A stretch of 64,000 nucleotides of DNA from Streptacidiphilus neutrinimicus (lineage in GTDB: Bacteria; Actinomycetota; Actinomycetes; Streptomycetales; Streptomycetaceae): the NCBI RefSeq assembly GCF_000787815.1, contig NZ_BBPO01000008.1:51062-115061 (forward strand). Reading direction: 5' to 3'. Below the pieces are notes generated by a model. The model saw nothing but the letters and a program-made list of their open reading frames with translations. It was not told the origin of the DNA and did not search any database. Below, piece by piece: positions 6,983 to 25,468 of the stretch. The position numbers and the translations under genes were made by a program. The number at the start of each line of letters is the position of its first letter. Positions within the stretch are counted from its first letter, which is position 1.

Positions 6983-7837
6983 TCAGGGCCGTTCGGCGTA
7001 CCGGTAGAGATGGGTCGGCCGCCAGCCGCCGGCCTGGAGGGCGGCGACGACGCGCGCGGCCGGGTCGGGACCGCCGGGGTGGTCGGGTCGGGGGTGGGAG
7101 ACGTTGCCGAGCAGGGGCAGGCCGAGCTCCGCGGCCAGCCCGGCGCAGGCATGGACCAGGGTGCCGGTGGCCGCCCTGGTCCTGCCGGGGCCGTCGAGCA
7201 GGATGTCCACGAGTTCGACGAACGCCGTGCCGGAGACGTCGTCGTATGCGTCCGTCAGCACCGTCGCGTGACCGAGCGGGACGCCGGTGTGCGGGTGTCG
7301 GACGATGCAGCTGCGACGGGAGGGGTCCGCCATCAGTCGGGCTGCCGCGTCGCGGGCCGCTGCGGGACCGGCGTCCTGGCCGCGGTCGCGGGCGGCGGTG
7401 GTCAGGGCCCGGGCGAGCCAGTCGGCGACCGACGCGTCATGGAGGCGCCCGTCGTCCCATCCGACGGGCGGCGCGTCGGCGGCCGGGGGCAGCTCGGCCG
7501 CGGGCGCGTAGCGAAGATAGGTCGTCAGCGGGCCGAGGGCGGGGTGCGATGGCGTGTCGGGCATGGTGCGCACGACAGCGGAGGTGCAGGCGGGCCGGAG
7601 GGAGAAGACCGCCGCGAGCAGGCGCGGCGGGTCGGCCAGCAGGGCGGGGTGGGCGTACTCCACCAGGCACTGCTGCTCTCCGGTGACCGGCTCGAGGTAG
7701 GCGTCGGCGACGTAGGTGCGGCCGTCGAGGGTGTGGGCCAGTCCGGCCTCGCGGGCGGCGTGGAGGTAGGCGGGGTCGACGTCGAACCCGGACTCGGGGG
7801 CGGAGGCGGGCGCGCCGGTGCCCGGTGCGGCGTTCAC
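6983..7837 (-). CDS. GNAT-like protein coupled to the M16 peptidase
   Basis: This 284-residue protein starts at GTG, which overlaps the stop of the upstream M16 gene (GTGA at 7834-7837), so the two are translationally coupled. The N-terminal half (FDVDPAYLHAAREAGLAHTLDGRTYVADAYLEPVTGEQQCLVEYAHP) is not recognised. The C-terminal half has a GNAT-like pattern: GVPLGHATVLTDAYDD, then FVELVDILLDGPGRTRAATGTLVHAC at the acetyl-CoA binding position, and the closing VVAALQAGGWRPTHLYRY. It may acylate a product or serve as a partner of the peptidase. The coupling argues that both act on the same substrate, plausibly the short peptide encoded just upstream. Confidence 0.65.
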   Translation of the reverse strand: MNAAPGTGAPASAPESGFDVDPAYLHAAREAGLAHTLDGRTYVADAYLEPVTGEQQCLVEYAHPALLADPPRLLAAVFSLRPACTSAVVRTMPDTPSHPALGPLTTYLRYAPAAELPPAADAPPVGWDDGRLHDASVADWLARALTTAARDRGQDAGPAAARDAAARLMADPSRRSCIVRHPHTGVPLGHATVLTDAYDDVSGTAFVELVDILLDGPGRTRAATGTLVHACAGLAAELGLPLLGNVSHPRPDHPGGPDPAARVVAALQAGGWRPTHLYRYAERP

Positions 7838-9063
7838 GCGGCCTGCGGCCGGACGACGCAGACGAGCCCGTCGGCCAGTTCGGCGGCGGCGGTGGTCACC
7901 TGCTGCGCGGTCACCTCGCACAGGGCCTCGATGTCCTGGTCCGGGTCCCAGGGGTGTTCCACGAGGACCCGCTGCGAGGCCAGGGACATGGCCAGGTCCA
8001 GCGGGGCCTCGGCCTCCAGCACGGTGTCCACGACGGCCTGGTGCACGGCGGCGGCGAGGGCCTCGTCGCTTGGCCCCTCGGCGGCGACCGTGTGCAGGAT
8101 CTCCTGGAACGCGTCGAGCAGGCGCGGGGCGTTGCCGGGCTCGGTGCCCGCCAGCATCCGCCAGGCGCCGGCGTCGCTGTAGTTGCGGGCCCAGGAGCGG
8201 AAGTCGTAGGCCAGCGCCTCCTTGTTGCGCAGCCGGGCGTAGAGGAGGGAGGCGGGGCTGGCGCCGAGGAGATGGGCGAGGACGTTGTAGGCGTGGCGGC
8301 GGGGGTCGCCCGCGCTGGGGGCGCGGCCGCCGGCCATCAGCCAGGTGAAGTCGTCGGGCCAGGCGGTGACGGTGGTCGGGTGCACGGGGCCGGGGGCGGC
8401 AGCCCCGGTGCCGGCGCCGCCGCCGAGCACGGTGGGTGCGGGCAGGGTGTCCAGGCCGGTGCGGGTCAGCGCGCGCTGCAGCGCGTCGGGGTCGGTGCCC
8501 CCGACGGCGGCGACGGCGACGGGGCTGGCGGCCATGGCGTCGGCGTGGGCGCGGTGGAGCCGGTCCAGGGTGATCGTGCCGACGCTGACCGGGTCGCCCG
8601 CGACCGGGGATCCGAGCGGGTGTCCGGCGAACAGGGCGGCCAGGAAGGCGTCCTGGACGGTGTCTGCGGGGTCGGCGACGGCCGCGGCGATCTCCTGGAG
8701 CACCACCTGACGTTCGCTGTCCAGGCAGTCCTGGGTCAGCTGGAAGTCGAGCAGGGCGCGGGACATCCACTCCAGGGTCTGCGGTGCGTCCTCGGCGAGC
8801 ACCTGGGCGTGGATGAGCAGTGTCTCGGGGCCGGTGCGGGCGTTGACCGACCCACCGGCGCGCTCGACGCGCTCGCACAGCGGCGCTCCGCCGTCCAGCG
8901 GCCGGGACATGACCAGATGCTCGAACAGGTGGGCGGTACCTTCGGCGCCTGGGGGGTCGTGGCGGCCGCCGAAGCCGAGCGCGAGGCAGAGGCTGGTGGT
9001 GCGGAGCCTGGGTTCGTGGCTGAGCAGGACCGGCACGTTTCCGGCGCGCAGTTGTTGGGTCAC
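7834..9063 (-). CDS. M16-family zinc metallopeptidase
   Basis: This 409-residue peptidase of the insulinase/PqqF-processing peptidase family has the inverted zinc motif HLFEH (HxxEH) near residue 45 and the later glutamate region SERQVVLQEIAAA. The length is that of an M16B subunit, roughly one half of a full clamshell, so it probably dimerises with itself or another protein. The GTG at 9063 is preferred because AGGAGG precedes it by six bases; an ATG at 9168 would place the perfect hairpin of 9121-9156 inside the coding region. M16B enzymes process precursor peptides in several RiPP pathways. It sits directly downstream of the 22-codon peptide gene, its most likely substrate. Confidence 0.85.
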   Translation of the reverse strand: MTQQLRAGNVPVLLSHEPRLRTTSLCLALGFGGRHDPPGAEGTAHLFEHLVMSRPLDGGAPLCERVERAGGSVNARTGPETLLIHAQVLAEDAPQTLEWMSRALLDFQLTQDCLDSERQVVLQEIAAAVADPADTVQDAFLAALFAGHPLGSPVAGDPVSVGTITLDRLHRAHADAMAASPVAVAAVGGTDPDALQRALTRTGLDTLPAPTVLGGGAGTGAAAPGPVHPTTVTAWPDDFTWLMAGGRAPSAGDPRRHAYNVLAHLLGASPASLLYARLRNKEALAYDFRSWARNYSDAGAWRMLAGTEPGNAPRLLDAFQEILHTVAAEGPSDEALAAAVHQAVVDTVLEAEAPLDLAMSLASQRVLVEHPWDPDQDIEALCEVTAQQVTTAAAELADGLVCVVRPQAA

Positions 9064-9120
9064 GGGAGGCCTCCTGGTGTCGGGACCGGCGGTGGCGGGG
9101 ACGGGGGCGGGACATGCGGA

Positions 9121-9156
9121 TGGGGTGCCGCCAGGCCACGGCCTGGCGGCACCCCA
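9121..9156 (-). terminator. perfect 16-bp hairpin between peptide gene and M16 gene
   Basis: The 15-base arms 9122-9136 (GGGGTGCCGCCAGGC) and 9141-9155 are exact reverse complements with a CACG loop, and an outer T-A pair extends the stem to 16 bp. It begins 17 bases after the peptide stop codon and has no strong T-run. Such structures after a short peptide gene often act as partial terminators or RNA stabilisers, giving more precursor than enzyme transcript. Confidence 0.75.
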
Positions 9157-9172
9157 TCGCTTGCTCATCGGC

Positions 9173-9241
9173 TCACTTGCCGGAGCGGACCTTGATCTTG
9201 TCCAGGCGCGGGCGCATGGCGGTGGCGTGGTTGCGGGTCAT
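9173..9241 (-). CDS. 22-residue peptide, candidate ribosomal precursor peptide
   Basis: This very short ORF encodes a basic peptide beginning MTRNHATAM and ending RLDKIKVRSGK, with no Cys and no hydrophobic segment. AGGAGG lies eight bases before ATG, one of the best ribosome binding sites in the window. A promoter-like sequence lies 170-200 bases upstream, and a perfect hairpin follows the stop. An M16 peptidase, a GNAT-like protein and an ABC exporter flank it. This arrangement is typical of RiPP precursors, but the sequence matches no class I know. It could instead be a leader peptide that controls the M16 gene. Confidence 0.7.
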   Translation of the reverse strand: MTRNHATAMRPRLDKIKVRSGK

Positions 9242-9407
9242 GGTGGGTTCCTCCTCTCGATGTGCTGTTGGTCCGTCAGGGGGGCTCAGGAGCGGGCGGA
9301 CCGGTCCGTTCCCTTCGAGGCCCCGGCGGGGCGCGGCGCGCCGGGCTGTGCCCGGTGCGCAGGTCCCGCGGTCTGCTCGGCGGGGTCTCCCCAGCGCCGT
9401 GACTCAT

Positions 9408-9450
9408 ATTCAACTCGATTGTGACTATGGAGTCAATCTCCGAAGTCACA
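9408..9450 (-). promoter_or_regulatory. promoter-like region with GTCA words upstream of the 22-codon peptide gene
   Basis: Reading the minus strand, TTGACT (9436-9431) and TTGAAT (9413-9408) are separated by exactly 17 bases, a fair sigma-70-like promoter, with a leader of roughly 160 bases before the peptide ATG. The -35 lies within ATTGACT, the complement of AGTCAAT, and another word TGTGACT (9450-9444) lies 13 bases upstream. The same AGTCAAT heptamer occurs at 17160, 17183 and 21562. Confidence 0.55.
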
Positions 9451-9466
9451 TTCATTTCCGATGGAC

Positions 9467-10270
9467 TCAGATCGCGAATGCGATGCTGCCGTCGCGGCGC
9501 CCGCGGTCCGCCATGGCACGCAGCAGCGCCACCGCGCCCGCCAGCCAGGCTGCGCCCACGGCCAGGCCCAGCAGGGCCTGCGGAGCCACCGAGGCGGCGC
9601 CACCGCCGTCCACGAGCGCCCGCAGCGCGTCGAGTTCGTGCGTCAACGGCATGGACCACGCCAGTACCCGCACGGGCAACGGCCAGAAGCCGACCGGGAC
9701 TTCGACACCGCAGACGGCCATCATCCCCAGGTAGGCGACATTGGACGCGACATTGCGCCACGAGCTCGCCCCCAGCACCAGCGCCGCCAGCAGCAGCCCG
9801 AAGCAGTACGTGCCGACCGCGCTGGCGGCCACCAGCACCGCCGCCACGGCGGCGGTGGCCGGGCTCCAGTCGACGCCGAAGAAGGGCCCGAGCCCCAGCA
9901 GCGCCGCCAGGGAGGTGGCGCAACCGCTGGGCAGCCACTGCAGACTGCGGCCCACGAAGATCCAGGACACGTCCGCGGGCGCGGCGACCAGCAGCGGCAA
10001 CGTCCCCGCGCGGCGCTCCCAGGCGCTGGAGGCGACCACCATCATCGACTCGATCGCACACAGCGTCAGCGCGTTGCCCAGGAACAGGAACCGCTGGTGC
10101 CCCGCCCCCGAGAAGGTCCGCCCGGCCAGGGTGAAGAACACCACCTGGCACAGCATCCGCAGGAGCCAGCCGAACAGCCAGGTCCTCCAGGTGTAGGTGG
10201 CCCGCAGGTCGGCCGCGGCGTTGGCGGCGCTGCACCGCACGATCCGCCACGCGGGCGTCCCGGTCCTCAT
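9467..10270 (-). CDS. ABC-2 type transporter permease
   Basis: This 267-residue integral membrane protein has about six hydrophobic helices, for example FLFLGNALTLCAIESMMVVASSAWERRAGTLPLLVAAP, YCFGLLLAALVLGASS and ALLGLAVGAAWLAGAVALL. WERRAGTLPLLVAAPADV is the usual conserved cytoplasmic loop of ABC-2 permeases. Its ATG overlaps the stop of the preceding permease (ATGA), so the two are coupled and probably form a heterodimer with the ATPase encoded upstream. The exporter gene order (ATPase, permease, permease) next to a short peptide gene suggests export of or immunity to the cluster product. Confidence 0.88.
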   Translation of the reverse strand: MRTGTPAWRIVRCSAANAAADLRATYTWRTWLFGWLLRMLCQVVFFTLAGRTFSGAGHQRFLFLGNALTLCAIESMMVVASSAWERRAGTLPLLVAAPADVSWIFVGRSLQWLPSGCATSLAALLGLGPFFGVDWSPATAAVAAVLVAASAVGTYCFGLLLAALVLGASSWRNVASNVAYLGMMAVCGVEVPVGFWPLPVRVLAWSMPLTHELDALRALVDGGGAASVAPQALLGLAVGAAWLAGAVALLRAMADRGRRDGSIAFAI

Positions 10271-11070
10271 GCCAGCCCCAGGGTGCCCGCGGCGCGCACC
10301 CGCGTCAGGATCCGCCGCATCAGCCACCCTCCGGCTGCGAAGCCCGCCAGGCCCAGTGCCGTGAGCGCCAGCAGCCTGCCGGGAAGGTCGGCGACCGCGG
10401 GCGTGGCGAGCGAGTCCCGCAGCAGCCCGCCGGACCAGGTGAGGAACACCAGCCGGCTGGCCGGGCGCAGCCACCCGGGCAGCGCGCTGACCGGCATCAG
10501 CACGCCACCCAGGAGGTAGACGGGGTAGCTGAGCGAGTTCTGGAAGATCCGCGCCGAGCGGCTGAGCACGAACGCGCAGGCCATCGCCGTCGCCGTGCCC
10601 GTCATCGCGAACGCGGTGGCCAACAGGCCCACGCCGAACGCCATCGGGTGCACGAGGGGGACGCGCAGTCCGAACACCCAACGGGCCACCGCCCAGGCCT
10701 CGGCCAGCGAGATCAGGCTCACCGCCGCGACCGCAGCCAGGCGGGCCGCGACGACCGTGAACAGCGGCACCGGGGCGGCCACGACCGCCTCGAGCCTGCC
10801 GGCCGACCGGTCCTGCGTGATCAGGTCGCCCGCCGCGAAGAGCATCATGCTCCATAGCGCGATCAGGCCCGGTGCCAGGACCGCGTAGGCGGTCAGCGAC
10901 CGGTCGCCGGACACCGCGGCGATCGCCAGGAAGATCAGCGCGTAGAGCGGCACCGTGAACAGGACCCGCAGGTCGCCGACCGAACGGCGGACCAGGAGCA
11001 GTTGCACCCGGAACGCGGCCGCCGCCGCCCTCGCGTCCCGCACGGCCCTCGGCGCGCCCGGTGGCCTCAT
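10267..11070 (-). CDS. ABC-2 type transporter permease
   Basis: This 267-residue protein is equal in length to its downstream neighbour, with about six membrane helices (LFTVPLYALIFLAIAAV, YAVLAPGLIALWSMMLFAAGDLI, FGVGLLATAFAMTGTATAMACAFVL and others). The loop QDRSAGRLEAVVAAPVPL is the characteristic ABC-2 permease segment. It overlaps both neighbours by ATGA (11067-11070 and 10267-10270), so stoichiometric production with the ATPase and second permease is likely. The family exports drugs, polysaccharides or peptides; a peptide or peptidyl-nucleoside cargo is inferred from context only. Confidence 0.9.
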   Translation of the reverse strand: MRPPGAPRAVRDARAAAAAFRVQLLLVRRSVGDLRVLFTVPLYALIFLAIAAVSGDRSLTAYAVLAPGLIALWSMMLFAAGDLITQDRSAGRLEAVVAAPVPLFTVVAARLAAVAAVSLISLAEAWAVARWVFGLRVPLVHPMAFGVGLLATAFAMTGTATAMACAFVLSRSARIFQNSLSYPVYLLGGVLMPVSALPGWLRPASRLVFLTWSGGLLRDSLATPAVADLPGRLLALTALGLAGFAAGGWLMRRILTRVRAAGTLGLA

Positions 11071-12134
11071 CGCGCCACCTCCATGCCGCGCCGCCCGATC
11101 AGCCGCAGATAGACCTCCTCGAGCCCCGGCCGGGACGTCGCCAGCTCCCGGACCCCCGCGTCGAGCAGCAGCCGTACCACCGCGGCCGCGTCCCCGCCTT
11201 CGCCCACCCGCAGCACGGTCCGTCCCTGCGCGTCGGGCGGTACGGCGGTGACGTGCGGCAGCGCGGACAGCTGCGTCAGCACCCCGGGCGGCACGTCGCG
11301 CGCGGTCACCCGTTCGCTCTCCGCCGCCCAGGCGCCGAGCTCGGCCGGGGTGGCGCTGGCCACGACCGCGCCGCGGTCGATCAGCGTGACCCGGTCGCAG
11401 ACCGCCTCCGCCTCGGCCATGTCGTGCGTCGTCACCAGGACGGTCCGCCCCTCGGCGCGCAGCGCGCGCACCAGGTCGCGGAACCCGTGCGCGGAGACCG
11501 GGTCCATGCCGGCCGTCGGCTCGTCCAGCAACACCACGGGCGGATCGTGGACCAGGCCCCGAGCCAGGTGCAGCCGCTGCTTCATGCCACGCGAGAACCG
11601 CTCCACCCGCTCGTCGGCATGGGCGCCCAGGCCGAGCTGCTCCAGCAGCTCCTCGCTTCGCTCGGCCAGACGGCGACCCGACATTCCGTACAGGCAGGCC
11701 CAGTAGAGCAGGTTCTGACGTGCGGTCAGTCTCTCGTAGAGCCCGCGCTCGCCGCCGAAGACGATGCCGATGAGCGGGCGCACGGCCGCCGGGCGGGCGG
11801 CCACGTCGTGGCCCAGCAGGTGCACGGTGCCGGAGCTGGGCAGCAGCACCGTGGAGAGGATCTTGCACAGCGTGGTCTTGCCCGCGCCGTTGGGCCCGAG
11901 CAGCCCGTGCACCTCGCCCGGGGCGATGTCGAGGTCGATCCCCCGCAGCGCGACCCGCTCGCCGGTGTCCTCGTCGCGGCGGCGGCCCCGAAGGCGACCG
12001 GTGAAGAGGCCCGAGCCGCGGCCCGTGGTCCGGAAGGTACGGCGCAGCGCCCGCACCGAGACGGCCGCCCGGGTGTCCGGGGCCGCGGTGGCGTCGGCCG
12101 CGTCGGCCGCGGCGGCCGCGGCGGCCCGCGTCAT
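11067..12134 (-). CDS. ABC transporter ATP-binding protein
   Basis: This 355-residue ATPase drives the two downstream permeases. It has Walker A GPNGAGKTT near residue 85, a signature FSRGMKQRLHLARGL, Walker B VVLLDEPTAGMD and the switch histidine in TTHDMAEAE. The extended N-terminal segment (GSGLFTGRLRGRRRDEDTGERVALRGIDLDI) resembles DrrA/NatA-like drug and polysaccharide exporters. The protein is cytoplasmic and docks on the ABC-2 permeases. It overlaps the upstream oxygenase gene by ATGA, which ties transport to biosynthesis in one operon. Confidence 0.95.
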   Translation of the reverse strand: MTRAAAAAAADAADATAAPDTRAAVSVRALRRTFRTTGRGSGLFTGRLRGRRRDEDTGERVALRGIDLDIAPGEVHGLLGPNGAGKTTLCKILSTVLLPSSGTVHLLGHDVAARPAAVRPLIGIVFGGERGLYERLTARQNLLYWACLYGMSGRRLAERSEELLEQLGLGAHADERVERFSRGMKQRLHLARGLVHDPPVVLLDEPTAGMDPVSAHGFRDLVRALRAEGRTVLVTTHDMAEAEAVCDRVTLIDRGAVVASATPAELGAWAAESERVTARDVPPGVLTQLSALPHVTAVPPDAQGRTVLRVGEGGDAAAVVRLLLDAGVRELATSRPGLEEVYLRLIGRRGMEVAR

Positions 12135-12784
12135 CGCCCGCCCGCCTCGGGCCGGACGAAGTGCAGGAGCAGCGTCAGCCGGTCCGGGGCGCCGGGGGCC
12201 ACGGGGGTGACGCAGTGCCAGGAGCGTGCGGAGGGCCGCATCAGCACCGAGGTGCCCAGCGTCGGACCGACCTCGGCCGCCACGTCCTGCGGGTCGGGCG
12301 AGCGAAGGACGCGCAGCGCGCCCGCCCATTCGGGCCGCCAGTGCGGGTTGAAGTACCAGATCTGGGTGACGGCCTTGTCCGCCCGGTCGGTGTGCGGGTC
12401 GATCCAGCCCTGCTGCGCGTAGCGGACGGCGCGCAGATGCGCGGTGCAGCCGTCGAGGTCGACGTCCATGACGTCGCCGAGCCGTGCCCGGTAGTCGTCG
12501 CCGAGCAGAGTGTCCACCAGGTCGCGCCATCGCGGGGCCAGCCGCCCCACCGCCGCGCCGGGCACGCCCCGGTCGGCCAGGGTCAGGTTGTGCGTGCTGT
12601 ATCCCTTGCCGCCGGTCCCGGCGTCCGCGGTGCGCAGGGTGTAGCCGGTGGCGGGGAAGTCCGCGGCCAGCTCGGCCGCGGTGCGCGGGTCGCCGAAGCA
12701 GTCGCGCAGCAGCGCCCAGTCGAAGGGGTCGCGGCGGACGTCGCAGCGCTCCAGCGCCCGCAGGTCGACCACGGGCGCGGTCAT
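12131..12784 (-). CDS. Fe(II)/2-oxoglutarate-dependent oxygenase (first of a pair)
   Basis: This 217-residue prolyl-4-hydroxylase-like double-stranded beta-helix enzyme carries the HxD metal ligands in GWIDPHTDRADK, the distal His in SARSWHCVTPV and the 2-oxoglutarate-binding Arg in APDRLTLLLHF. It presumably hydroxylates or oxidises a cluster intermediate. It overlaps the upstream oxygenase by ATGA (12781-12784) and the ATPase gene downstream. The two oxygenases share motifs but differ clearly, so they probably perform different steps. Octosyl-acid nucleoside pathways also use two 2OG oxygenases, which makes this pair suggestive. Confidence 0.85.
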   Translation of the reverse strand: MTAPVVDLRALERCDVRRDPFDWALLRDCFGDPRTAAELAADFPATGYTLRTADAGTGGKGYSTHNLTLADRGVPGAAVGRLAPRWRDLVDTLLGDDYRARLGDVMDVDLDGCTAHLRAVRYAQQGWIDPHTDRADKAVTQIWYFNPHWRPEWAGALRVLRSPDPQDVAAEVGPTLGTSVLMRPSARSWHCVTPVAPGAPDRLTLLLHFVRPEAGGR

Positions 12785-13392
12785 GCCCACAGCTCCACCT
12801 GGATCGTGCAGCGCAGCCGGGTGGCGTCCGCGCGGACCGGTTCCACCGCGTGCCAGGAGGACTCGGACCGGGCGAAGACCACCGAGCGGGGCGCCTGCGG
12901 CGACAGCGCGGCGTACGGGGCGTCGTCGTCGCCGTACACCTCGAAGGCGCCGCCGTCGTCCGCGCCCCAGTCCTCGTTGAGGTAGAGGACATGGCTGGCC
13001 AGCTTGCCGGCCTTGTCGGTGTGACGGCTGACGTAGTCGCCGGGGCCGAAGACGAACAGGCCGATCTCGGCGTGCCGTGCGGAGACGGGCACCTTCACGG
13101 CGCGCTCGACCCACTGCAGGTACGCGGGAGCGCGCAGGGCGTCGGCGAGGTCGCGCCAGACCGGGTCGAGCCGGTCCAGGACCTCGCAGTCCCCGCCGTC
13201 CTGTACCAGCGGCAGCACGTGCATGGCGTAGGCCTTGTCGCCGCCCCGTGCCCGCTCCTTGCGGTCGAACACCTCCGTCGGCGGCAGTGTGCCCCGCAGC
13301 CGTTCGAGCAGCGTCTGCGGCAGCAGGCCGTCGGCCTGCGCCCAGGTGTAGGGCGTCTCGTGCGCGGTGACGGGCGCGTCGAGGTCGAGCAT
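12781..13392 (-). CDS. Fe(II)/2-oxoglutarate-dependent oxygenase (second of a pair)
   Basis: This 203-residue oxygenase has the HxD motif in YVSRHTDKAGK, the distal His in SESSWHAVEPV and a basic residue in ATRLRCTIQVEL as the likely 2-oxoglutarate anchor. The ATG at 13392 is chosen because GGAGGAGACC precedes it; a longer frame to 13449 has no support. It heads a coupled run of oxygenase, oxygenase, ATPase and two permeases, with a 77-base gap from the SDR upstream. The substrate may be the 22-residue peptide or a nucleoside intermediate; the sequence does not decide between them. Confidence 0.85.
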   Translation of the reverse strand: MLDLDAPVTAHETPYTWAQADGLLPQTLLERLRGTLPPTEVFDRKERARGGDKAYAMHVLPLVQDGGDCEVLDRLDPVWRDLADALRAPAYLQWVERAVKVPVSARHAEIGLFVFGPGDYVSRHTDKAGKLASHVLYLNEDWGADDGGAFEVYGDDDAPYAALSPQAPRSVVFARSESSWHAVEPVRADATRLRCTIQVELWA

Positions 13393-13469: not shown

Positions 13470-14351
13470 TCAGGACGTGCGGGCGGGTTCCGGCAGCGGC
13501 AGGGCTTCCGGCAGCGGCAGGGCTTCCGGCAGCGTCGGCGGTTCGGGCGCCTGCGGGCCGGGAACGAGCCGGGGCGCGGCGCGTCCCGTGGCCGGATCGG
13601 TCTCACCGCGCAGCAGTTGGGCTTCGAGGAACCGCTGGTCGGGGCCGTCGGTGGGCGCGGGCCGGTCGACGAGCCGCCAGATCTCGGCGGCGACGTCGGC
13701 CGGGTCCATGAAGGCGGCCAGCTCGGCGGGTGTCAGGTCGAGGTCGTCGTGGAAGCCGGCCGTGGCCATGGCGCCGGGGTGGACCAGCGTCACCCGGTGG
13801 GACGGGTCGGCGGCCAGCAGTTCGGGCGCCAGGCCGCGGGTGAACGCGGCCTGGGCGGCCTTGAGCCCGCAGTACAGGCTCTGCTCCTCGCGGGCGCGCC
13901 ACGAGGACGACGAGGCGACCGTCACCAGGTGCAGCGGCCGGTGCGGCGCCGACGTCCACGGGTCCGCGAGCAGACGCCGCAGCAGGCGCACCGGGCCCAG
14001 CCAGAGTAGTGCGGTGAGGTGGTCGATCTCCTGCGGCGCGGTCAGGGCGAGCGGCCGCCGGAGGAACGCCCCGGCGACCCAGAACAGGTACAGCGGGCCG
14101 GGCCCCCGGAGTCCGTCCAGGTCGGCCGCGTCCACGGCGGCCGGGTCGGTGAGGTCGAGGACGCGCGCGCGGAACCGTTCCTGCTCGGGCGCGGCGTCGG
14201 CCGCGGTGGTCGTCGCCGCGGACCGCCCGTAGGCGACCACGTCGTGGCCGCGCCGCAGCCCCTGGGTGACCAGCTCACGGCCCAGCCCCCGGGTGCCGCC
14301 GACCACGGCCACGGTCCCTGGTGTCGCCTGCGCGGCTGCGGGACGGCTCAC
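13470..14351 (-). CDS. short-chain dehydrogenase/reductase (catalytic YxxxK present)
   Basis: This 293-residue NAD(P)-dependent oxidoreductase has the Rossmann motif VVGGTRGLGRELV at the N-terminus, the catalytic Ser region VASSSSWRA and YCGLK as the YxxxK motif. The C-terminus has a Pro/Glu/Leu tail with a repeated PEALPLPEALPLPEP segment. Its GTG start overlaps the stop of the HprK-like gene (GTGA at 14348-14351). A paralog at 17998-18819 is divergently transcribed and shares FWVAG and the whole active-site block but has YxxxR. The two may form a heteromeric reductase in the pathway. Confidence 0.85.
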   Translation of the reverse strand: MSRPAAAQATPGTVAVVGGTRGLGRELVTQGLRRGHDVVAYGRSAATTTAADAAPEQERFRARVLDLTDPAAVDAADLDGLRGPGPLYLFWVAGAFLRRPLALTAPQEIDHLTALLWLGPVRLLRRLLADPWTSAPHRPLHLVTVASSSSWRAREEQSLYCGLKAAQAAFTRGLAPELLAADPSHRVTLVHPGAMATAGFHDDLDLTPAELAAFMDPADVAAEIWRLVDRPAPTDGPDQRFLEAQLLRGETDPATGRAAPRLVPGPQAPEPPTLPEALPLPEALPLPEPARTS

Positions 14352-18819: not shown

Positions 18820-19364
18820 GCAGCCACCCCGTCGTCATCGCCGACTACGACCCCACCTGGCCACAGGCGTTCGCCGCCGAGGCGGCGCGGATCGTCTCCG
18901 TGTGCCCGACCGACGCGGCCGTCGAACACATCGGCTCCACCGCCGTACCGGGCCTGGCCGCCAAGCCCGTGCTCGACGTACTGGTGGGCGTGCGGGCTCT
19001 GGAGCCCGAAGGGGCCGCGTGCGTGCGCGGGCTCGTCGCGGCCGGCTACCGCTACCGGCCGGACTTCGAAGCGGTCATGCCCCACCGCCGCTACCTCACT
19101 CGCGACGCCGCCGACGGAACCCGGATCGCCAACATCCACCTAGTACGCCATGGCGACCCGATGTGGTCCGCGACCCTGGCCTTCCGCGACGCCCTGCGCA
19201 CGGACCCGTTCCTGCGCGCGGGTTACGAGGCTGCCAAACGGTCCGCGGCCGCGACGGCCCCCAACGACGTCCACGCCTACAACGACGCCAAAGGCCCCTT
19301 CATCGCCGAGGCCCTGGCGGTGCTGGGGATGCCCCCCGCCTCGCCCGGACCCGGGCGACGCTGA
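18816..19364 (+). CDS. GrpB/UPF0157-family nucleotidyltransferase-like protein
   Basis: This 182-residue protein of the GrpB (UPF0157) family has the typical features: DYDPTWPQAFAAEAARI at the N-terminus, VEHIGSTAVPGLAAKPVLDVLVGV in the nucleotidyltransferase-like core, then HRRYLTR and NIHLV, and the C-terminal YNDAKGPFI helix. It is full length for the family. The fold is that of nucleotidyltransferases and the biochemical role is mostly uncharacterised. It could add or transfer a nucleotidyl group to a pathway intermediate. Translation is coupled to the upstream SDR through ATGA, so it belongs to the same operon. Confidence 0.9.
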   Translation: MSSHPVVIADYDPTWPQAFAAEAARIVSVCPTDAAVEHIGSTAVPGLAAKPVLDVLVGVRALEPEGAACVRGLVAAGYRYRPDFEAVMPHRRYLTRDAADGTRIANIHLVRHGDPMWSATLAFRDALRTDPFLRAGYEAAKRSAAATAPNDVHAYNDAKGPFIAEALAVLGMPPASPGPGRR

Positions 19365-19652: not shown

Positions 19653-20321
19653 TCAACCCCCAGGCGTGCCCGATCGTCCCGCCGGACCGCGCCGTGCCGG
19701 GGACGCCGGGGGCACCGCCGTCGGCAGCCGTTCCGCCAGGGCGGCCAGGAGGCCCGGCACCTGGTGGCGTCCGGTGAGGCGCAGCACCGCGCATCCCGTG
19801 CCCTGCCGGGCCAGCAGTTCCGCCAAGGCCGGGCGGCGGTGGCGTCGGAAGGTGAGGATGAAGCGAAGGAACGACGGTGCGTCGGGCGGGAGCCGGACCG
19901 AGCCGTCCGCGGCCGAGGCATAGCCCGGCGCCCGGCCCGTCAGCCGCCAGCGGGCGGTGCGGCGCAGATAGCCGAGGACGCAGACGTGGGTGGGGTAGTC
20001 CAGCCACACCACGGCCTCGGCCCGGTTCAGGCGCTCGGGCAGGGTCGTGCTGTGCAGACCGTCCATGACCCACGCGGCGTCCTGCGCCAGCGCGTCGTGG
20101 TCGGCCTGCCACTGCTCCGGCGAGCAGCGGATCTGCCAGCCCCGGTCGAAGTAGTGGTCGTCCAGGCCGACATAGGGCAGGCCCGACGAGGCCGCCAGGC
20201 GGGTCGCGAGCCACGTCTTGCCGCTGCCCGGGCAGCCGATCACGGCGACCCGCCTGGCGCGGGTCAGCTCCTCGACGGCGGCCGTCCACTCGCCCCGCCC
20301 GCCCGCGCGGGTCGCCCTCAC
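19653..20321 (-). CDS. P-loop kinase-like ATPase
   Basis: This 222-residue protein of the adenylate-kinase/topology-modulation type has Walker A GCPGSGKTW near residue 27, then YVGLDDHYFDRGWQ and a Walker B-like AEAVVWLDYP. RRTARWRLTGR resembles the lid region of small-molecule kinases in this group, which phosphorylate nucleosides, shikimate or similar substrates. The GTG start overlaps the aminotransferase stop by GTGA (20318-20321), so it is the coupled second gene of that operon. A nucleoside or sugar kinase role in the pathway is inferred. Confidence 0.8.
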   Translation of the reverse strand: MRATRAGGRGEWTAAVEELTRARRVAVIGCPGSGKTWLATRLAASSGLPYVGLDDHYFDRGWQIRCSPEQWQADHDALAQDAAWVMDGLHSTTLPERLNRAEAVVWLDYPTHVCVLGYLRRTARWRLTGRAPGYASAADGSVRLPPDAPSFLRFILTFRRHRRPALAELLARQGTGCAVLRLTGRHQVPGLLAALAERLPTAVPPASPARRGPAGRSGTPGG

Positions 20322-21487
20322 CCGCGCCCCGCCTCGCCCCGCACGACCTGCGCACCCTCGACGCCTTCCGCGGCCCGGGACAGTGCGGCGACCACGCGGT
20401 GCAGCACCGGCCGCTGGGCCATGCCCACCCGCAGCACCGCTCCCATGACGTGCAGCGGCCGCAGGTCCCGGACCGCGATCCGGTCTTCGGCGAGCGTGTC
20501 CAGGGCGCGCTGCACGAGCGCGTCGGTGCGGGCGCGCACAGCGACGAAGTTGCCCTGGGAGGGCAGCGCGGTGAGGCCGGGCAGCGGCCGCACCGCCGCG
20601 GTGAACCAGGCGCGGTCGGCGGCGACCTCGCGGTGCACGGCGGTGATCTTGTCGCCGTTGCGCAGCAGGTGTTCGGCCAGGCGCAGGGCGGGGGCGGAGA
20701 CCGGCCCCCGGGTGTTCCAGCGGGCCAGATAGGCGATCAGCTCGGGGTGGCCGTGCAGGTAGCCCAGGCGGGCGCCGGCCAGGCCGTAGCCCTTGGAGAA
20801 GGAGCGGATGCGGACCAGGTGACGGTGCCGCCCGGTATGCGCGGGGCCGGACCAGCGCGGACCGTCCTGGAAGTGGCGGTACACCTCGTCGACGACGAGC
20901 AGGTTGCCCGCGGCCGCCACCGATGCGCAGAGTCGGTCCAGCTCCTCGGGCGTGTGCACCGCGCCGGTGGGGCCGTTGGGATTGGACAGCCACACCACGG
21001 CCCGGCCGGGGCGCGCGGCCTGAAGCCGGATCAGCTCCTCGGTGTCGAAGGCGTGCTGTTCCGGCAGGTAGGGGGCGGCCACCAGCTCCAGGCCCCGCAG
21101 CCGCGCATAGTCCGGCAGCGACTGGTAGTTGAGCTCCTGCGTGACGGCGGTGGCACCGACGGCGGGGCCGAAGGCCTCGGTGAGCAGCCGGTAGGCGTCG
21201 TCCGATCCGGCCACCGGCAGCAGCGAGCGGGGGTCGACCCGCAGGCGGTCGGCCAGCATCTGGACGAAGGCGGTGTCCGAGGGGTAGCCCGCGACGTCCG
21301 CGCCGGGCAGTGCGGCCAGGGCCTCATCGGCCAACCGCTCCAGTGCGGGGTGGCGCAGTTCGTTGCTGGCCAGGTTGACGGCGCCGGGGATCCGGCGGCG
21401 TCGATAGGGCTGCAGGGCGTGCACCGGGGAGGCGGCGAGCACCTCCAGCAGCGTCCTGTGCGTCCTCATGGCGCTTGCAGCCTCCAC
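20318..21487 (-). CDS. PLP-dependent class I/II aminotransferase (HisC-like)
   Basis: This 389-residue fold-type I aminotransferase has SNPNGPTG, the Asp-containing LLVVDEVYRHF and the Schiff-base lysine in RIRSFSKGYGLAGARLGY, all typical of histidinol-phosphate-aminotransferase-like enzymes. The GTG at 21487 follows AGGAGGAAGG; ATG at 21469 is an alternative. In nikkomycin/polyoxin biosynthesis a HisC-like aminotransferase (NikK/PolI) installs the 5'-amino group, and the same role is plausible here. It is divergent from the radical SAM gene across a region with GTCA words and coupled to the downstream kinase. Confidence 0.92.
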   Translation of the reverse strand: MEAASAMRTHRTLLEVLAASPVHALQPYRRRRIPGAVNLASNELRHPALERLADEALAALPGADVAGYPSDTAFVQMLADRLRVDPRSLLPVAGSDDAYRLLTEAFGPAVGATAVTQELNYQSLPDYARLRGLELVAAPYLPEQHAFDTEELIRLQAARPGRAVVWLSNPNGPTGAVHTPEELDRLCASVAAAGNLLVVDEVYRHFQDGPRWSGPAHTGRHRHLVRIRSFSKGYGLAGARLGYLHGHPELIAYLARWNTRGPVSAPALRLAEHLLRNGDKITAVHREVAADRAWFTAAVRPLPGLTALPSQGNFVAVRARTDALVQRALDTLAEDRIAVRDLRPLHVMGAVLRVGMAQRPVLHRVVAALSRAAEGVEGAQVVRGEAGRG

Positions 21488-21551: not shown

Positions 21552-21630
21552 TGTCAAGCATAGTCAATATTGCCTGTCACATTTGCCTCTCACTTGCTTG
21601 ACTGCGGCTTGTGAAATGGTGTCACATAAT
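21552..21630. promoter_or_regulatory. GTCA words in the aminotransferase/radical SAM divergent promoter
   Basis: TGTCAAG (21552-21558), AGTCAAT (21562-21568), TGTCACA (21575-21581) and GTCACAT (21621-21627) occur in the 177-base divergent region. AGTCAAT is identical to words in the EPT/phosphatase and 22-codon-peptide promoters, and TGTCAAG to the one upstream of the SARP. CATAAT (21625-21630) is a possible -10 for the radical SAM gene. Confidence 0.5.
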
Positions 21631-21664
21631 CTGGTCGTGACCCGTCGAGCCGCGAGGCGAGCTG

Positions 21665-22999
21665 ATGTCGAAAATCCTGGTGGTCTGGCCACCGCACGTG
21701 CCCGGCTACTTCAACGCCGGACACCACACCCCGCTCTTCGAGGTCGCTGCGCACCTGCGTCGCCGCCCCGGTGTCGAGCACGTCGACGCGCTCGACGGAG
21801 GTGCGCTGAACGTCAACTGGAAGGACCTCGGAGCCACGCTGCACCAGGGGCGCTACGACGTCATCGCGATGATGAACGACTACGACGCCGTCGACGGCTT
21901 CGAGCGCTTCCTGAGCTACACCCGCGAGCTGTGCCCCGGCGCCAAGGTGGTCACCTTCGGCCGCTTGTCCGCCCTCAACCCCGGGCACTTCGTGCGCTAC
22001 GACCTCGACGCCGTCGTCCGCTCCGGAGACCCGGAGTGCGGGGTGGGCGACTACGTGGAGGCCGTGCTCGCCGGGGACCCCGAACGCCCGTTGCCGGGCG
22101 TCCAGGTGCGCACCGCCGAGGGATGGACCGCGCCCACCGGTCCGGGCCGCACCCTGGAGCCGGACCAGTGGGCCCTGCCCGACGTCCGCGAGATCCCCTA
22201 CGACGCGTACGAGCGCCTGTACGCCCGAGACGAACGCAAGTTCTGCGGGATCCCCTTCCGCCGCGAGCTGGTCGTGCCGACTGCCCGGGGGTGCCCCGTC
22301 GGCTGCTCCTACTGCGACGTGCACGAGATCTTCGGCCTGCGCGAGCGACGCCTGTCCGTCGACACGGTGCTGGAGTACATCGCCGCCGCGCGGCAGGCCG
22401 AGCCCTCGTTCGAGTACGTCTCCTTCTACGCCCCGACCTTCACTCTCGACCGTCCCTGGACCAGGGAGCTGTGCCACCGCCTGCTCGACCTGCCCGACCG
22501 GCTCCCGTGGAAGTGCACCACCACCGTGCCGCACCTGGAGGAGGAACTGGTGCGGCTGATGGGCGCGGCCGGATGCGTGCGCATCTCCGTCGGTCTGGAG
22601 ACCCTGGACCCCGACGGCCACAGTTCCCTGCCTCGCTCCAAGCGGGTGCACCAGGACAAGTTCGAGCGTCTCGCGCGCTGGTGCGCCGACTCCGGCATCG
22701 AACTCAACGCCTTCGTGATGGTCGGCCTGCCCGGAACCTCCCCGGAGGGGACCGACGCCACCGTCGCCTTCGCCCGCTCGCTCGACGTGCGGGTGCGCCC
22801 CACGCTCTACACGCCCCTGCACGACCTGCGGCCCACCATGACCACAGCCGAGGTCAGCCGCTACAACCGGCACACCCTGACCACGCCCACCGCACCGGAC
22901 CTGGCGGAACGTCACTACGAGCACATCTTCGGCCCCGAGCCCCGCGTGACCAGGGTCCACGAGCGCGTTCCCCGCGCCGCCGCGGCGGCGCCCGCGTGA
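21665..22999 (+). CDS. radical SAM enzyme with B12-binding-like N-terminal domain
   Basis: This 444-residue enzyme has an N-terminal Rossmann-like domain (MSKILVVWPPHVPGYFNAGHHTPLFEVAAHL, about 1-150) of the cobalamin-binding type but without an obvious DxHxxG motif. The radical SAM core has RGCPVGCSYC (CxxxCxxC) near residue 215 to bind the 4Fe-4S cluster, and a SAM-contacting strand VRISVGLETLDP. It generates a 5'-deoxyadenosyl radical. PolH/NikJ are radical SAM enzymes that cyclise enolpyruvyl-UMP to the octosyl skeleton; with the EPT gene nearby, this is the likely counterpart, though a peptide-modifying role is possible. Translation is coupled to the next gene (GTGA). Confidence 0.9.
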   Translation: MSKILVVWPPHVPGYFNAGHHTPLFEVAAHLRRRPGVEHVDALDGGALNVNWKDLGATLHQGRYDVIAMMNDYDAVDGFERFLSYTRELCPGAKVVTFGRLSALNPGHFVRYDLDAVVRSGDPECGVGDYVEAVLAGDPERPLPGVQVRTAEGWTAPTGPGRTLEPDQWALPDVREIPYDAYERLYARDERKFCGIPFRRELVVPTARGCPVGCSYCDVHEIFGLRERRLSVDTVLEYIAAARQAEPSFEYVSFYAPTFTLDRPWTRELCHRLLDLPDRLPWKCTTTVPHLEEELVRLMGAAGCVRISVGLETLDPDGHSSLPRSKRVHQDKFERLARWCADSGIELNAFVMVGLPGTSPEGTDATVAFARSLDVRVRPTLYTPLHDLRPTMTTAEVSRYNRHTLTTPTAPDLAERHYEHIFGPEPRVTRVHERVPRAAAAAPA

Positions 23000-24216
23000 G
23001 CACCGTGCCCGAGACCGCCCCGCTGTCGCGTGCGGAGTGGGAACAGGCCCTACGGCAGGACGCGCAGGCGCTTCCCACACAGACCCCCGGGTGGCTCGAA
23101 GCGATCTGCGCCCAGGGCGAGTGGGTCGAGGCCGGACGCCGGTACCGGTGGGACGACGGCACCCGGATCGTGCTTCCGCTGGTCCGGCGCACCGGGCCGC
23201 CCGAGGCCGGGCTTTCCCAGCCCGGCCCGACCGAGCCCGGCCCGACCGAGCCCGGCCCGCCTGAGCCCGGGCAGCACGGCCTCGGGGAGGGCGCCTTCAG
23301 GCGCACCGGGTTCGAGCAGGCGGAATCCGGGCGAACCGGAACCGGGCGAACCGCTCGCGCCCAGTCCGCCTTCGACCAGTCCGCCTTCGACCAGTCCGCC
23401 TTCGACCAGTCCACCTTCGGCCAGGCCGCTTTCGGGCAGACCGACTTCGCCTCCTGGCCCGCCGAGTGGGGCGTGGGTGGGCCGCTGTGCCCGGACGGCC
23501 CGCCGACGCCGGCTCAGACTGCCGCCGTCCTCGCGGACCTGGCCCGGCTGCCGGGCGGGGTCAGGCTGCGGGTCGGCCCGCTCACCGCGCGGCCGTGGGC
23601 CGCCGCCGTACCGTCCCGGTCCCCATGCACCCCGCGCACCACCCATGTCGTCGACCTCACCGGCCCGGACGGCTCATGGCGGCAGCGACTTCAACCGGCC
23701 GCCCGGCGCTCGATGCGCAAGGCCGCCCGTTCCGGTCTGGACGTGACCCGTGGCCGCACGCGGGGGGATCTGGAGGTGTTCTACGCCCTCTACCAGGAGT
23801 CCATGGAGCGCTGGGCCGCGCAGTCCGGCGAGCCGACGGACCGGGTGCGCCACCGGATCGAGTCCCGGGATCCGCTGCACAGGCTCGTCACCGTCGCCGA
23901 GCGTCTCGGCGAGGCCTGCTCGGTGTGGACGGCCTGGTACCGCGGCGAACCCGCCGCCTCGGTGATCCTGCTGCGCCAGGGCCCGCAGCAGAAGTACTGG
24001 CGCGGCGCCATGTCGCGGCCGCTGGCCGCGCCCACCCGGGCCAACCACCTGCTGCACGAACTGGCGCTCCAGGAGGCCGCCGACGCGGGCTGCACCCACT
24101 ACCACATGGGCGACTCGCATCCGGGCGGCGTCGCGCGCTTCAAGGAGTCGCTGGGCGCCCGCCCCCACCCCACACCCGCCTACGTGCTGCCGTCAGCAGG
24201 CGGGGCGGTCCGCTGA
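22996..24216 (+). CDS. FemAB/GNAT-like transferase with a low-complexity insert
   Basis: This 406-residue protein has a C-terminal part (from about residue 235) with features of the acetyltransferase_6/FemAB superfamily: RQRLQPAARRSMRKAARSGLDVTRG, FYALYQESMERWAAQ, and HLLHELALQEAADAGCTHYHMGDSHPGGVARFKESLGA. FemAB-like enzymes transfer amino acids from aminoacyl-tRNA, including in some peptidyl-nucleoside pathways. An insert of about 80 residues contains repeated PGPTE units and five-residue SAFDQ-like repeats. It could attach an amino acid to the nucleoside or peptide. GTG overlaps the radical SAM stop. Confidence 0.75.
   Translation: MSTVPETAPLSRAEWEQALRQDAQALPTQTPGWLEAICAQGEWVEAGRRYRWDDGTRIVLPLVRRTGPPEAGLSQPGPTEPGPTEPGPPEPGQHGLGEGAFRRTGFEQAESGRTGTGRTARAQSAFDQSAFDQSAFDQSTFGQAAFGQTDFASWPAEWGVGGPLCPDGPPTPAQTAAVLADLARLPGGVRLRVGPLTARPWAAAVPSRSPCTPRTTHVVDLTGPDGSWRQRLQPAARRSMRKAARSGLDVTRGRTRGDLEVFYALYQESMERWAAQSGEPTDRVRHRIESRDPLHRLVTVAERLGEACSVWTAWYRGEPAASVILLRQGPQQKYWRGAMSRPLAAPTRANHLLHELALQEAADAGCTHYHMGDSHPGGVARFKESLGARPHPTPAYVLPSAGGAVR
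23218..23440 (+). repeat. short in-frame tandem repeats inside the FemAB-like gene
   Basis: Two arrays of 15-base, in-frame repeats interrupt the gene. Around 23218-23265 the unit encodes PGPTE/PGPPE, and around 23365-23440 it encodes SAFDQ three times, then STFGQ and AAFGQ. The second array follows the pentapeptide-repeat pattern of a central Phe or Leu every five residues but is too short for a stable helix. Copy number probably varies between strains. Confidence 0.7.
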
Positions 24217-24244
24217 CCGCGCACGCACGACACGGAGCCAACAG

Positions 24245-25468
24245 ATGAGCACCTCACAGCCGTTCGTCGAATCCCAGGCGAACGCCCCTACGCAGGCCGG
24301 CAGCCCGCGCGCGGACGCCCAGCACCCGGCCGCGCGCATCGTGCAAGCCACCCGCGACTACTACAAGCTGGACCTGGACAGGCCCGACCGCCTGCTGCAC
24401 CGCGTGGAGCGCGCGGACCCCAAGTTCCGCCTCACCCTGCTGAGCGCCTACGACCACGCGCACCCCGGCGCCCTGGCCGCCTCACGCCTCAACGAACTCC
24501 ACGAGGCCCGTGCCCGGATCCAGGCATACGCCGCCGTCAGGGACAGTCTGGTGAGCTTGGTCCCGGGACTGCGCCCGGTCAAGGGGCTGGCCATCTCCGC
24601 CTGTTATCCCGCCCCGCTCCTGCGGCACCAAGGTGACCTCGACCTGCACGCTCCCGACGAAGCCGGGCTGTGGCGCGCGGCGCAGGCGCTGATCGCCGAC
24701 GGCTGGCAGCTCACCGACCTCGGCGTCCGCCAGGTCGAGCGCGCTCCCGCCCACCTGCTGACGTTCTGCCTTCCCCACGGCGACGACCTGGCCCGCCCGA
24801 TCTACGTGGAGTTGACCGACGTCGCCTGGCTCGGGGACGGCCGCCGCAGCACACCCAGGCGCTCCCTGCCCGCCTCCCCCTCGGACGGGGCGGTGACCAG
24901 CCTGCTCTTCCTTTCCCTCGAGGCCTTCGAGCGCCCCCTCGGTCTACGGGACGCCGTCGATTCCTGGCTGCTGGCGGCGCGGTTGACCGAGCACGACCGC
25001 GCCCTCCTGGTCGGCCTCGTCGGCCGCCTCCGGCTGCACGACGCGTACCGCCGCCTGCTCGCGACGGTGGAGCGTGGGGGGCTGCTCGCCGAATCCGGGC
25101 TGCCGGACGTACCCAGTCCGTCCCGCCGCCGGCCCGCCCTGTGCCGTCCGGACGCGGCCGCACTGCGCTGGCTCCAATGGGCCGGCTTCTACCGCGGTCC
25201 GTCCCGCCTGCGCGACGCCGCGTGGGAGCGGCTCGCCATGCGTGTGGACGCGCCTCGTGCACTCCGTTTCGGCCTGTGGACCTTCGGTGTCCCCGCCGAG
25301 GCACTCGGCGTCCACGACCAGCCGCAAGCCGACGGCACCGCCGCCGCAGTCCCCCAGGACAAGGCCGTGCTTCGGGGCCGCCGCAGGCTCGCCACCCCCG
25401 TCGGCGACTTCTTCCTCGTCGCAGGGCCGCAAGTGCCCGCGGACATCCTCGTCGACGCGACCGGCTGA
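24245..25468 (+). CDS. NTP_transf_5-type nucleotidyltransferase
   Basis: This 407-residue protein resembles the nucleotidyltransferase_5 family. The core motif is KGLAISACYPAPLLRHQGDLDLHAPDEA, in which RHQGDLDL supplies the Asp pair for metal-dependent nucleotidyl transfer. FCLPHGDD, IYVELTDVAWL and the helical C-terminal domain follow. Members are frequent beside HprK-like genes in RiPP and polysaccharide clusters, but their chemistry is poorly known. Both partners are present here. It starts 28 bases after the FemAB-like gene and is the last recognisable gene of the biosynthetic cluster before insertion-sequence debris begins. Confidence 0.8.
   Translation: MSTSQPFVESQANAPTQAGSPRADAQHPAARIVQATRDYYKLDLDRPDRLLHRVERADPKFRLTLLSAYDHAHPGALAASRLNELHEARARIQAYAAVRDSLVSLVPGLRPVKGLAISACYPAPLLRHQGDLDLHAPDEAGLWRAAQALIADGWQLTDLGVRQVERAPAHLLTFCLPHGDDLARPIYVELTDVAWLGDGRRSTPRRSLPASPSDGAVTSLLFLSLEAFERPLGLRDAVDSWLLAARLTEHDRALLVGLVGRLRLHDAYRRLLATVERGGLLAESGLPDVPSPSRRRPALCRPDAAALRWLQWAGFYRGPSRLRDAAWERLAMRVDAPRALRFGLWTFGVPAEALGVHDQPQADGTAAAVPQDKAVLRGRRRLATPVGDFFLVAGPQVPADILVDATG

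Follow-up and report, generated by a model that had tools for sequence, protein, structure and literature searches.

A 64,000-nucleotide stretch of Streptacidiphilus neutrinimicus DNA (contig NZ_BBPO01000008.1, positions 51,062 to 115,061 of the forward strand), referred to here as the window, was analysed. The genome that holds the window is 8.4 Mb in size. Positions 6983 to 25468 contain a gene cluster that can be divided into two modules. The peptide core consists of a short peptide gene, an M16 metallopeptidase, a GNAT-like protein, an NTP_transf_5 protein, and an ATP-binding cassette (ABC)-2 exporter. The predicted octosyl-nucleoside set comprises an enolpyruvyl transferase (EPT), a radical SAM enzyme (rSAM), a phosphatase, two 2-oxoglutarate (2OG)-Fe(II) oxygenases, an aminotransferase, a small kinase, short-chain dehydrogenases/reductases (SDRs), an HprK-like protein, and a FemAB-like protein. 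Judging from the genes alone, the cluster may couple an octosyl-type nucleoside pathway to a ribosomal peptide with its own M16, GNAT-like, and nucleotidyltransferase-like proteins and exporter, with the peptide as the likely carrier of the nucleoside before export. We put this forward tentatively, giving it somewhat less than an even chance.

Relatives of the core were read at 20 loci: those of the 17 genomes of the window's family that carry the same distinct M16 (window included), that of Streptomyces sp. Ru62, and two from the eight plasmid records that bear the M16 gene. The features of the window are as follows, with start codons as called by the gene finder used here.

1801-3186, minus strand: HTH_3/TPR regulator (Pfam); members of its family at 5 of the 20 core loci
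3432-6542, plus strand: BTAD/NB-ARC/TPR regulator (Pfam); members of its family at 11 of the 20 core loci
6983-7837, minus strand: GNAT-like protein; its start overlaps the M16 end by 4 bases; present in 18 of 20 loci
7834-9036 (alternative longer start 9168), minus strand: M16 (pitrilysin/PqqF-type) metallopeptidase with HLFEH motif (PF00675, PF05193)
9103-9172, minus strand: GC-rich predicted hairpin immediately 3' of the peptide stop (folding against shuffles)
9173-9241, minus strand: 22-residue peptide gene MTRNHATAMRPRLDKIKVRSGK, AGGAGG-type ribosome-binding site just 5'; relatives at 17 of 20 M16 loci
9467-10270, minus strand: ABC-2 permease (PF01061); 16 of 20 loci, 17 counting the outer stretch of Ru62
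10267-11043, minus strand: ABC-2 permease (PF01061), 4-base overlap with the other permease; 17 of 20 loci, 18 counting the outer stretch of Ru62
11067-12134, minus strand: ABC exporter ATPase (PF00005), 4-base overlap with oxygenase 1; 17 of 20 loci, 18 counting the outer stretch of Ru62
12131-12784, minus strand: 2OG-Fe(II) oxygenase 1, nucleoside module (Pfam)
12781-13392, minus strand: 2OG-Fe(II) oxygenase 2, nucleoside module (Pfam)
13470-14312, minus strand: SDR 1, nucleoside module (Pfam)
14348-15583, minus strand: HprK-like P-loop protein with conserved GK and SDD (Pfam, NCBIfam); 6 of 20 core loci
15658-17073, minus strand: NikO-like EPT (Pfam, comparison with solved structures)
17258-18001, plus strand: CX5R (Y_phosphatase3) phosphatase (Pfam)
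18037-18819, plus strand: SDR 2, a weak assignment (adh_short 25.8 bits, cut-off 26.6)
18816-19364, plus strand: GrpB-family protein (PF04229)
19653-20321, minus strand: small P-loop kinase; in all four loci that combine octosyl genes and core
20318-21469, minus strand: HisC-like aminotransferase (Pfam, NCBIfam)
21665-22999, plus strand: rSAM of the octosyl set, CxxxCxxC (Pfam, alignment)
22996-24216, plus strand: FemAB/GNAT-like transferase, 4-base overlap with the rSAM gene
24245-25468, plus strand: NTP_transf_5 protein of the peptide core, beginning 28 bases after the FemAB-like gene

The genes for the EPT, the HprK-like protein, an SDR, the two oxygenases, the ABC ATPase, and the two permeases form a minus-strand run that ends at 9467. 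A gap of 225 bases separates the permease end of this run from the peptide gene, which is followed by the M16 and GNAT genes. In the called coordinates, overlaps of 4 bases occur between the two oxygenase genes, between oxygenase 1 and the ABC ATPase, between the two permeases, and between the rSAM and FemAB-like genes. The exporter and NTP_transf_5 genes sit within runs that contain octosyl genes, and because the runs on both strands mix the two sets, the peptide core and the octosyl module are interleaved in the window. Gene calls, translations, Pfam, and NCBIfam recovered, at about the same coordinates, every gene type named in an earlier reading of this DNA (hereafter the sequence-only reading); its list had omitted the GrpB gene, the P-loop kinase, and the two left-hand regulators (1801-3186 and 3432-6542).

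In 14 of the 17 family genomes, counting the window, a relative of the peptide lies at most 1.5 kb upstream of the M16 gene, and the 17 peptides found at the 20 M16 loci comprise 15 distinct sequences. The 22-codon open reading frame (ORF) singled out in the sequence-only reading is therefore conserved. A tblastn search of 72,556 plasmid records with the window peptide (E≤10) returned eight records, the same eight that bear the M16 gene. Seven of the matches have an E-value of 3e-5, and the eighth, with an E-value of 5, is meaningless by itself. None of the eight matches lies under an annotated feature in the gene table, which is incomplete. The short ORF is more than a chance reading frame, because its relatives recur upstream of M16 in 14 of 17 genomes and the plasmid matches coincide with the M16 records.

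The peptides are 19-23 residues long and share a motif like xRNHxxxLRPRLDKIx. The common pattern is R-N-H-x-x-x-[LMV]-[RS]-P-R-L-[DEQ]-K-[IVL], with one K-N-H and one R-K-H variant. The H, P, R, L, and K residues are invariant in all 17 sequences, P, R, and L even though each is encoded by two or three codons, and the asparagine preceding the histidine is present in 16. The tail of four to seven residues is variable, and its last residue is K, R, A, G, T, E, or H. Comparison of the 11-codon core across all pairs of the 17 sequences gave 332 synonymous codon differences and, in variable columns, 449 non-synonymous ones. Peptide identity tracks M16 identity (Spearman coefficient 0.387, with none of 2000 permutations as high). 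The peptides of the window and ADI95-16 are 91% identical despite differing other genes, and those of the window and Ru62 are 52% identical. The locus possesses the conserved, genomically encoded precursor by which ribosomally synthesized and post-translationally modified peptides are recognised.

The hairpin that follows the peptide stop in the window has a predicted folding energy of -47.5 kcal/mol (z -6.7, 100 shuffles), and a hairpin is predicted at most 70 bases from the peptide stop at all 17 loci (z -2.1 to -7.3). The window hairpin is likely to be a terminator or attenuator before M16, and its predicted placement is as expected for a strongly expressed precursor gene separated from its helper genes. 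At the HUAS 15-9 locus, the peptide ORF is positioned about 6 kb from M16 on the opposite strand.

The window M16 belongs to a distinct clade. Among 394 genomes of the window's family, 17, the window's own among them, have a member that scores at least 264 bits (E≤1e-78). The remaining M16 matches listed reach no more than 147 bits, and 384 of the 394 genomes have some match at E≤1e-30. In a class-wide draw of 394 genomes, M16 at E≤1e-60 was found in the window genome and two others only, all from the window's family. A protein search identified 131 relatives at E≤1e-60, and among the matches listed (120) were those from Salinispora, Lentzea, Amycolatopsis, and other genera. The HxxEH motif is present in 18 of the 20 M16 proteins; the M16 genes of G153, G242, and G377 were called short, so the motif was checked in their DNA, and the short versions were used in trees. 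The motif is lost in G036 (HLLER) and G148 (HLLAR), the M16 proteins of which are a derived, probably non-proteolytic form. No peptide, GNAT, NTP_transf_5, or ABC genes are found in the 15-kb contigs of these two genomes, which start only 1.2-1.4 kb before M16. The G206 locus, which has no peptide, is uninformative, since the contig ends 145 bases upstream of M16. As read from the motifs, the peptide and an active-motif M16 accompany each other at every informative locus. The M16 genes of G036 (L082) and G148 (L085) adjoin an NDK-like gene, identified by Pfam in G036 and by membership of the same gene family in G148.

Over the stretches first read, the GNAT-like gene occurs at 18 of 20 loci, and the NTP_transf_5 and ABC ATPase genes each at 17. 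In Ru62, an NTP_transf_5 gene and three ABC genes lie further out from the core. The same genome has a second M16 of the clade (L114:10131-15071, HLFEH), about 20 kb away from the first copy and accompanied by NTP_transf_5 and ABC genes; the 20 kb read showed no further peptide with the motif searched for. The GNAT-like protein is predicted to contain two GNAT domains (predicted local distance difference test score of the model 87), and its profile matched only a designed binder in the PDB. In the NTP_transf_5 protein, D131, D133, and E189 are invariant in 17 sequences, and its profile had no match in the PDB by sequence. Fold relatives were judged from the matches listed only, and the literature search for PDB entries 9EI6 and 9BLQ returned only unrelated papers.

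The window EPT scores 187.8 bits against NikO (4fqd) and 105.4 bits against the best MurA, which places it with NikO/PolA rather than MurA, as the sequence-only reading had proposed. Five other EPSP-family matches are located elsewhere in the window genome. In the loop of the MurA cysteine, the window EPT has GGD and NikO has GGC; aspartate at this position is active in some MurA enzymes. An initial EPT scan of genome contigs found no relative. At E≤1e-50, EPT relatives occur in 5 of 394 family genomes, window included, and in the other four they adjoin an rSAM, an aminotransferase, and a 2OG oxygenase. The window rSAM, compared in an alignment of 16 named loci, has an intact CxxxCxxC motif and shares 52-61% identity with enzymes encoded next to NikO-like EPTs in four further genomes, a comparison that PolH and NikJ themselves stand outside. 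The phosphatase, the two 2OG oxygenases, and the pyridoxal phosphate-dependent aminotransferase have the family-level Pfam matches that the octosyl pathway calls for. The kinase at 19653-20321 had no match in the PDB. In the HprK alignment, GK is present in 13 of 13 sequences and the P-loop expression matches 5 of 6; a search of 14 genomes of the window's genus found the HprK-like gene in the window only. Close relatives of single window proteins, 82-85% identical to them, occur in Streptomyces sp. WP-1 (EPT), HF10 (HprK-like), and S. incarnatus (M16).

The sequence-only reading had assigned the HprK-like and FemAB-like proteins to the peptide toolkit. The octosyl cluster of Sinosporangium album (L115-L116) holds both genes, and the genome has no match to the distinct M16 at E≤1e-45. 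The two proteins are therefore reassigned to the nucleoside module. A role for them as bridging enzymes between nucleoside and peptide was rejected on the same grounds and because a FemAB-like gene is located at the edge of the Longimycelium octosyl cluster. Similar octosyl loci in Sinosporangium album and at a second locus of G153 (L123-L124) have the HprK-like gene beside the phosphatase gene and no M16 match in the stretches read. Octosyl-type sets of EPT, rSAM, and aminotransferase are also found in Magnetococcales and Pseudoalteromonas (L034, L029), far from Actinomycetota.

Octosyl genes are positioned beside the core at 4 of the 20 loci, those of the window, Ru62, G162, and G170, and none were seen at the other 16. 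The expectation of the sequence-only reading that the two sets would occur together in other genomes was thus borne out. The M16 tree groups the window with ADI95-16, G045, and G049; Ru62 with HUAS 15-9 and G153; and G162 and G170 with G118, G048, and G229. It rejects the four octosyl loci as a single clade (p = 3.1e-7), and a single origin of the pairing with it; the pairing of the window M16 with the second Ru62 M16 is also rejected (p = 9e-6). The window EPT, aminotransferase, and kinase are 53, 56, and 57% identical to those of Ru62, and closer to them than to those of G162 or G170, whereas the M16 proteins of the window and Ru62 (first copy) are 42% identical. The M16 tree and these differing identities indicate that parts were exchanged and that the pairing arose more than once. 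At least two M16 lineages have a core paired with octosyl genes. With the window left out, the core is present in 3 of 7 octosyl genomes and in at most 13 of 337 others (p = 0.0026), a rough figure, since M16 was searched in 394 family genomes and rSAM in 345.

The sequence-only reading had proposed a hybrid of octosyl-nucleoside enzymes and a ribosomal-peptide toolkit. Both sets are present; the toolkit, however, forms a conserved core found next to many unlike gene sets and is not particular to octosyl chemistry. Pfam annotation covered some of the variable neighbour genes, with G377, G206, G049, G162, and G229 outside it. The core is accompanied by two thymidylate-kinase-like proteins, a NUDIX protein, and glycosyltransferases in G142; by SPASM and B12-type rSAMs, TauD, and NDK in G242; by hisS, NDK, and an adenylate-forming enzyme in ADI95-16; by guanylate kinase and ahcY in HUAS 15-9; by a Met-type tRNA synthetase, HAD/PRK proteins, and a class III aminotransferase in G048; and by a P450 and two dCTP-deaminase-like proteins in G118. 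Nucleotide enzymes are frequent beside the core, and not universal. Aminoacyl-tRNA synthetase genes occur in three unlike core loci, of His type in L044 (1772-3073), Pro type in L077 (5563-7275), and Met type in L088 (6048-7619); they may confer resistance as extra copies or provide charged tRNA.

Since the exporter and helper proteins stay constant while the neighbours vary, they probably act on a constant part of the exported compounds, and the peptide is the only shared small part in sight; this is why we read the peptide as a carrier. That the window's exporter and NTP_transf_5 genes belong to gene runs shared with the octosyl set supports this reading. By analogy with Nik/Pol/Mal chemistry, the EPT would add enolpyruvate to a uridine nucleotide, the rSAM would close the bicycle, and the phosphatase, two oxygenases, and aminotransferase would convert it to an amino-uronic or octosyl nucleoside, the amine of which may be acylated by the FemAB-like protein. 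We infer that the nucleoside is then joined to the peptide, as the sequence-only reading also supposed. The peptides share no conserved Ser, Thr, Tyr, or Cys, and at four loci they are entirely free of Ser, Thr, and Tyr, which excludes an ester or phosphodiester to a hydroxyl side chain as the common rule for attachment and leaves the peptide ends or the invariant lysine as candidate sites. M16 would trim the peptide, and the part that the conjugates share may be the substrate of the GNAT-like and NTP_transf_5 proteins and would be what the ABC exporter recognises.

Several observations weigh against the peptide as a carrier. The cluster genes include no obvious ligase for joining nucleoside and peptide, the fold model of the GNAT-like protein does not single out a donor, and the fold match of the NTP_transf_5 protein is weak. 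Most octosyl clusters have no core: M16 at E≤1e-45 was found in none of 18 octosyl-only genomes (of 19 octosyl-only loci, L027 was left out), and about 6.7 Mb separate the octosyl set of G153 from its core. The co-occurrence becomes modest (p = 0.024) when the near relatives G162 and G170 count once, and the rSAM tree rejects a single clade at a weaker level (p = 0.0196). Three pairing lineages appear in the best tree of the first M16 copies, but the second Ru62 M16 may group with G162/G170 (support 66/19), and the branches with good support require two pairings, not three; the count of three was therefore reduced to at least two once this copy was included. The core is also found near genes unrelated to nucleosides: near sugar-type enzymes and an AdoMet synthetase in G028, near YcaO and TfuA (L077:3042-5494) and the Pro-type synthetase in G045, and near APH-type and glycosyltransferase proteins of the sugar type in G172. 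In G153, it has few biosynthetic-looking neighbours (oxidoreductases and a hydrolase), and G377, the neighbours of which are unannotated, was counted likewise. Such surroundings suggest that the core may make a product of its own.

The last point is the basis of an explanation that we regard as unlikely, in which the core makes its own secreted peptide, such as a bacteriocin, signal, or immunity factor, and merely shares gene-rich islands of secondary metabolism. The sparse loci of G153 and G377, the very mixed neighbours at other core loci, and the separate octosyl set of G153 are in its favour, whereas the 4-base overlaps in the octosyl gene runs that hold the window exporter and NTP_transf_5 genes, and the occurrence of core-adjacent octosyl genes in two or more M16 lineages, weigh against it. 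A doubtful, although somewhat better placed, alternative is that the peptide is a discarded scaffold: the chemistry would take place on a peptide residue or an added amino acid, and M16 would release a small compound retaining no more than one or a few residues, in a PqqA-like manner, with the synthetases supplying charged tRNA to the GNAT-like and FemAB-like proteins.

The predicted hairpin after the ORF at all 17 loci would also be consistent with a regulatory leader, in which the short ORF and hairpin attenuate M16 and its neighbours and the peptide has no function of its own. This is very unlikely, given that amino acids are kept while codons change, that the peptide has no run of one amino acid, and that the HUAS 15-9 ORF is distant from M16 on the other strand. 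Least probable is a chance neighbourhood of an ordinary octosyl cluster and an unrelated M16 operon, which we disfavour: M16 proteins are common in the family at E≤1e-30, but the distinct clade is restricted to 17 genomes with a clear gap to the rest, further octosyl-plus-core loci exist, and genes of the two modules overlap.

Excerpts of the published accounts of the polyoxin and malayamycin pathways describe an EPT, rSAM, phosphatase, two oxygenases, and aminotransferase (PMC5365060, PMC8724604). The window matches polyoxin, nikkomycin, and malayamycin in its NikO-like EPT, rSAM, phosphatase, two 2OG oxygenases, and aminotransferase, and differs from all three in having a built-in conserved ribosomal peptide core with an exporter. 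It further differs from nikkomycin in that the EPT has an aspartate in place of the NikO cysteine in the GG(C/D) loop. The proteins of these kinds in the three pathways are PolA/NikO/MalO, PolH/NikJ/MalJ, PolJ/NikL/MalL, PolD/K, NikI/M, and MalI/M, and PolI/NikK/MalK. A TruD-like pseudouridine synthase in G170 resembles malayamycin biosynthesis, as described in excerpts of PMC8724604.

The 20 window proteins were compared by Pfam with other short-peptide systems. Microcin C-type peptide-nucleotide antibiotics are encoded by a very short precursor gene, an exporter, GNAT-type and peptidase genes, and nucleotide-handling enzymes, all of which have counterparts in the window. Unlike those systems, the window has no ThiF/MccB adenylyltransferase among these proteins, and none of the 17 precursors ends in asparagine. 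In pyrroloquinoline quinone (PQQ) biosynthesis, the PqqA peptide is accompanied by PqqF/M16 and PqqE. The combination of a peptide of about 22 residues and an M16 peptidase is similar, but the window M16 scores 30.7 bits against a PqqF cut-off of 320, and the window rSAM has no Pfam match to SPASM, as would be expected of PqqE. Peptide aminoacyl-tRNA ligase (PEARL) pathways use a small scaffold peptide with a protease and tRNA-dependent enzymes; the window has the small peptide, the protease, and possibly tRNA-dependent enzymes, with no LanB-like or lantibiotic-dehydratase match among its proteins. Phosphorylated lasso peptide clusters (PadeK, PsmK/PsmN) combine an HprK-like kinase with a nucleotidyltransferase homolog, according to an excerpt of PMC9266682, and the window too has both gene types. 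It has no lasso cyclase match among the same proteins and no precursor with a conserved C-terminal serine. A phospho-serine link between peptide and sugar or nucleoside, as in PsmK/PsmN, was rejected, because the peptides have no conserved Ser, Thr, Tyr, or Cys, and some have no Ser, Thr, or Tyr. In the available part of a Streptomyces paper (PMC13118837), M16 genes are located beside gyrA/ptsH and thyX/pnp. We recognised no description of such a peptide system in the open PubMed Central literature; subscription journals were outside the search, and an earlier account is possible.

Should the peptide prove to be a carrier, many unrecognised antibiotic clusters could be traced by means of one short gene, since its motif and the M16 clade are easily searched, and nucleoside export and delivery would become addressable through a single gene. 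Octosyl nucleosides would be tied to a ribosomal peptide, and a peptide module would have moved as a unit between unlike small-molecule pathways; to our knowledge, there is no earlier case of either. A wider version of this proposal, which we consider possible, if rather speculative, is that of an actinobacterial plug-in carrier. The conserved cationic peptide, with its fixed protease, GNAT, nucleotidyltransferase, and exporter, would be coupled to interchangeable warheads, octosyl nucleosides in the window and nucleotide-like or amino-acid-like compounds elsewhere, to give Trojan-horse conjugates, with the extra aminoacyl-tRNA synthetases shielding the producer's own target.

The cluster is followed on its right by a Ser/Thr protein kinase gene (25932-27278, minus strand), which is immediately adjacent and convergent to NTP_transf_5. 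Further to the right, a nitric oxide synthase oxygenase domain (28083-29042, minus strand) adjoins a globin/FAD/NAD flavohaemoglobin-type protein (29198-30328, minus strand). The right part of the window is likely to be a mobile region, with a phage-type integrase (54845-56125, plus strand) and a large RHS-repeat protein (58689-62294, plus strand).

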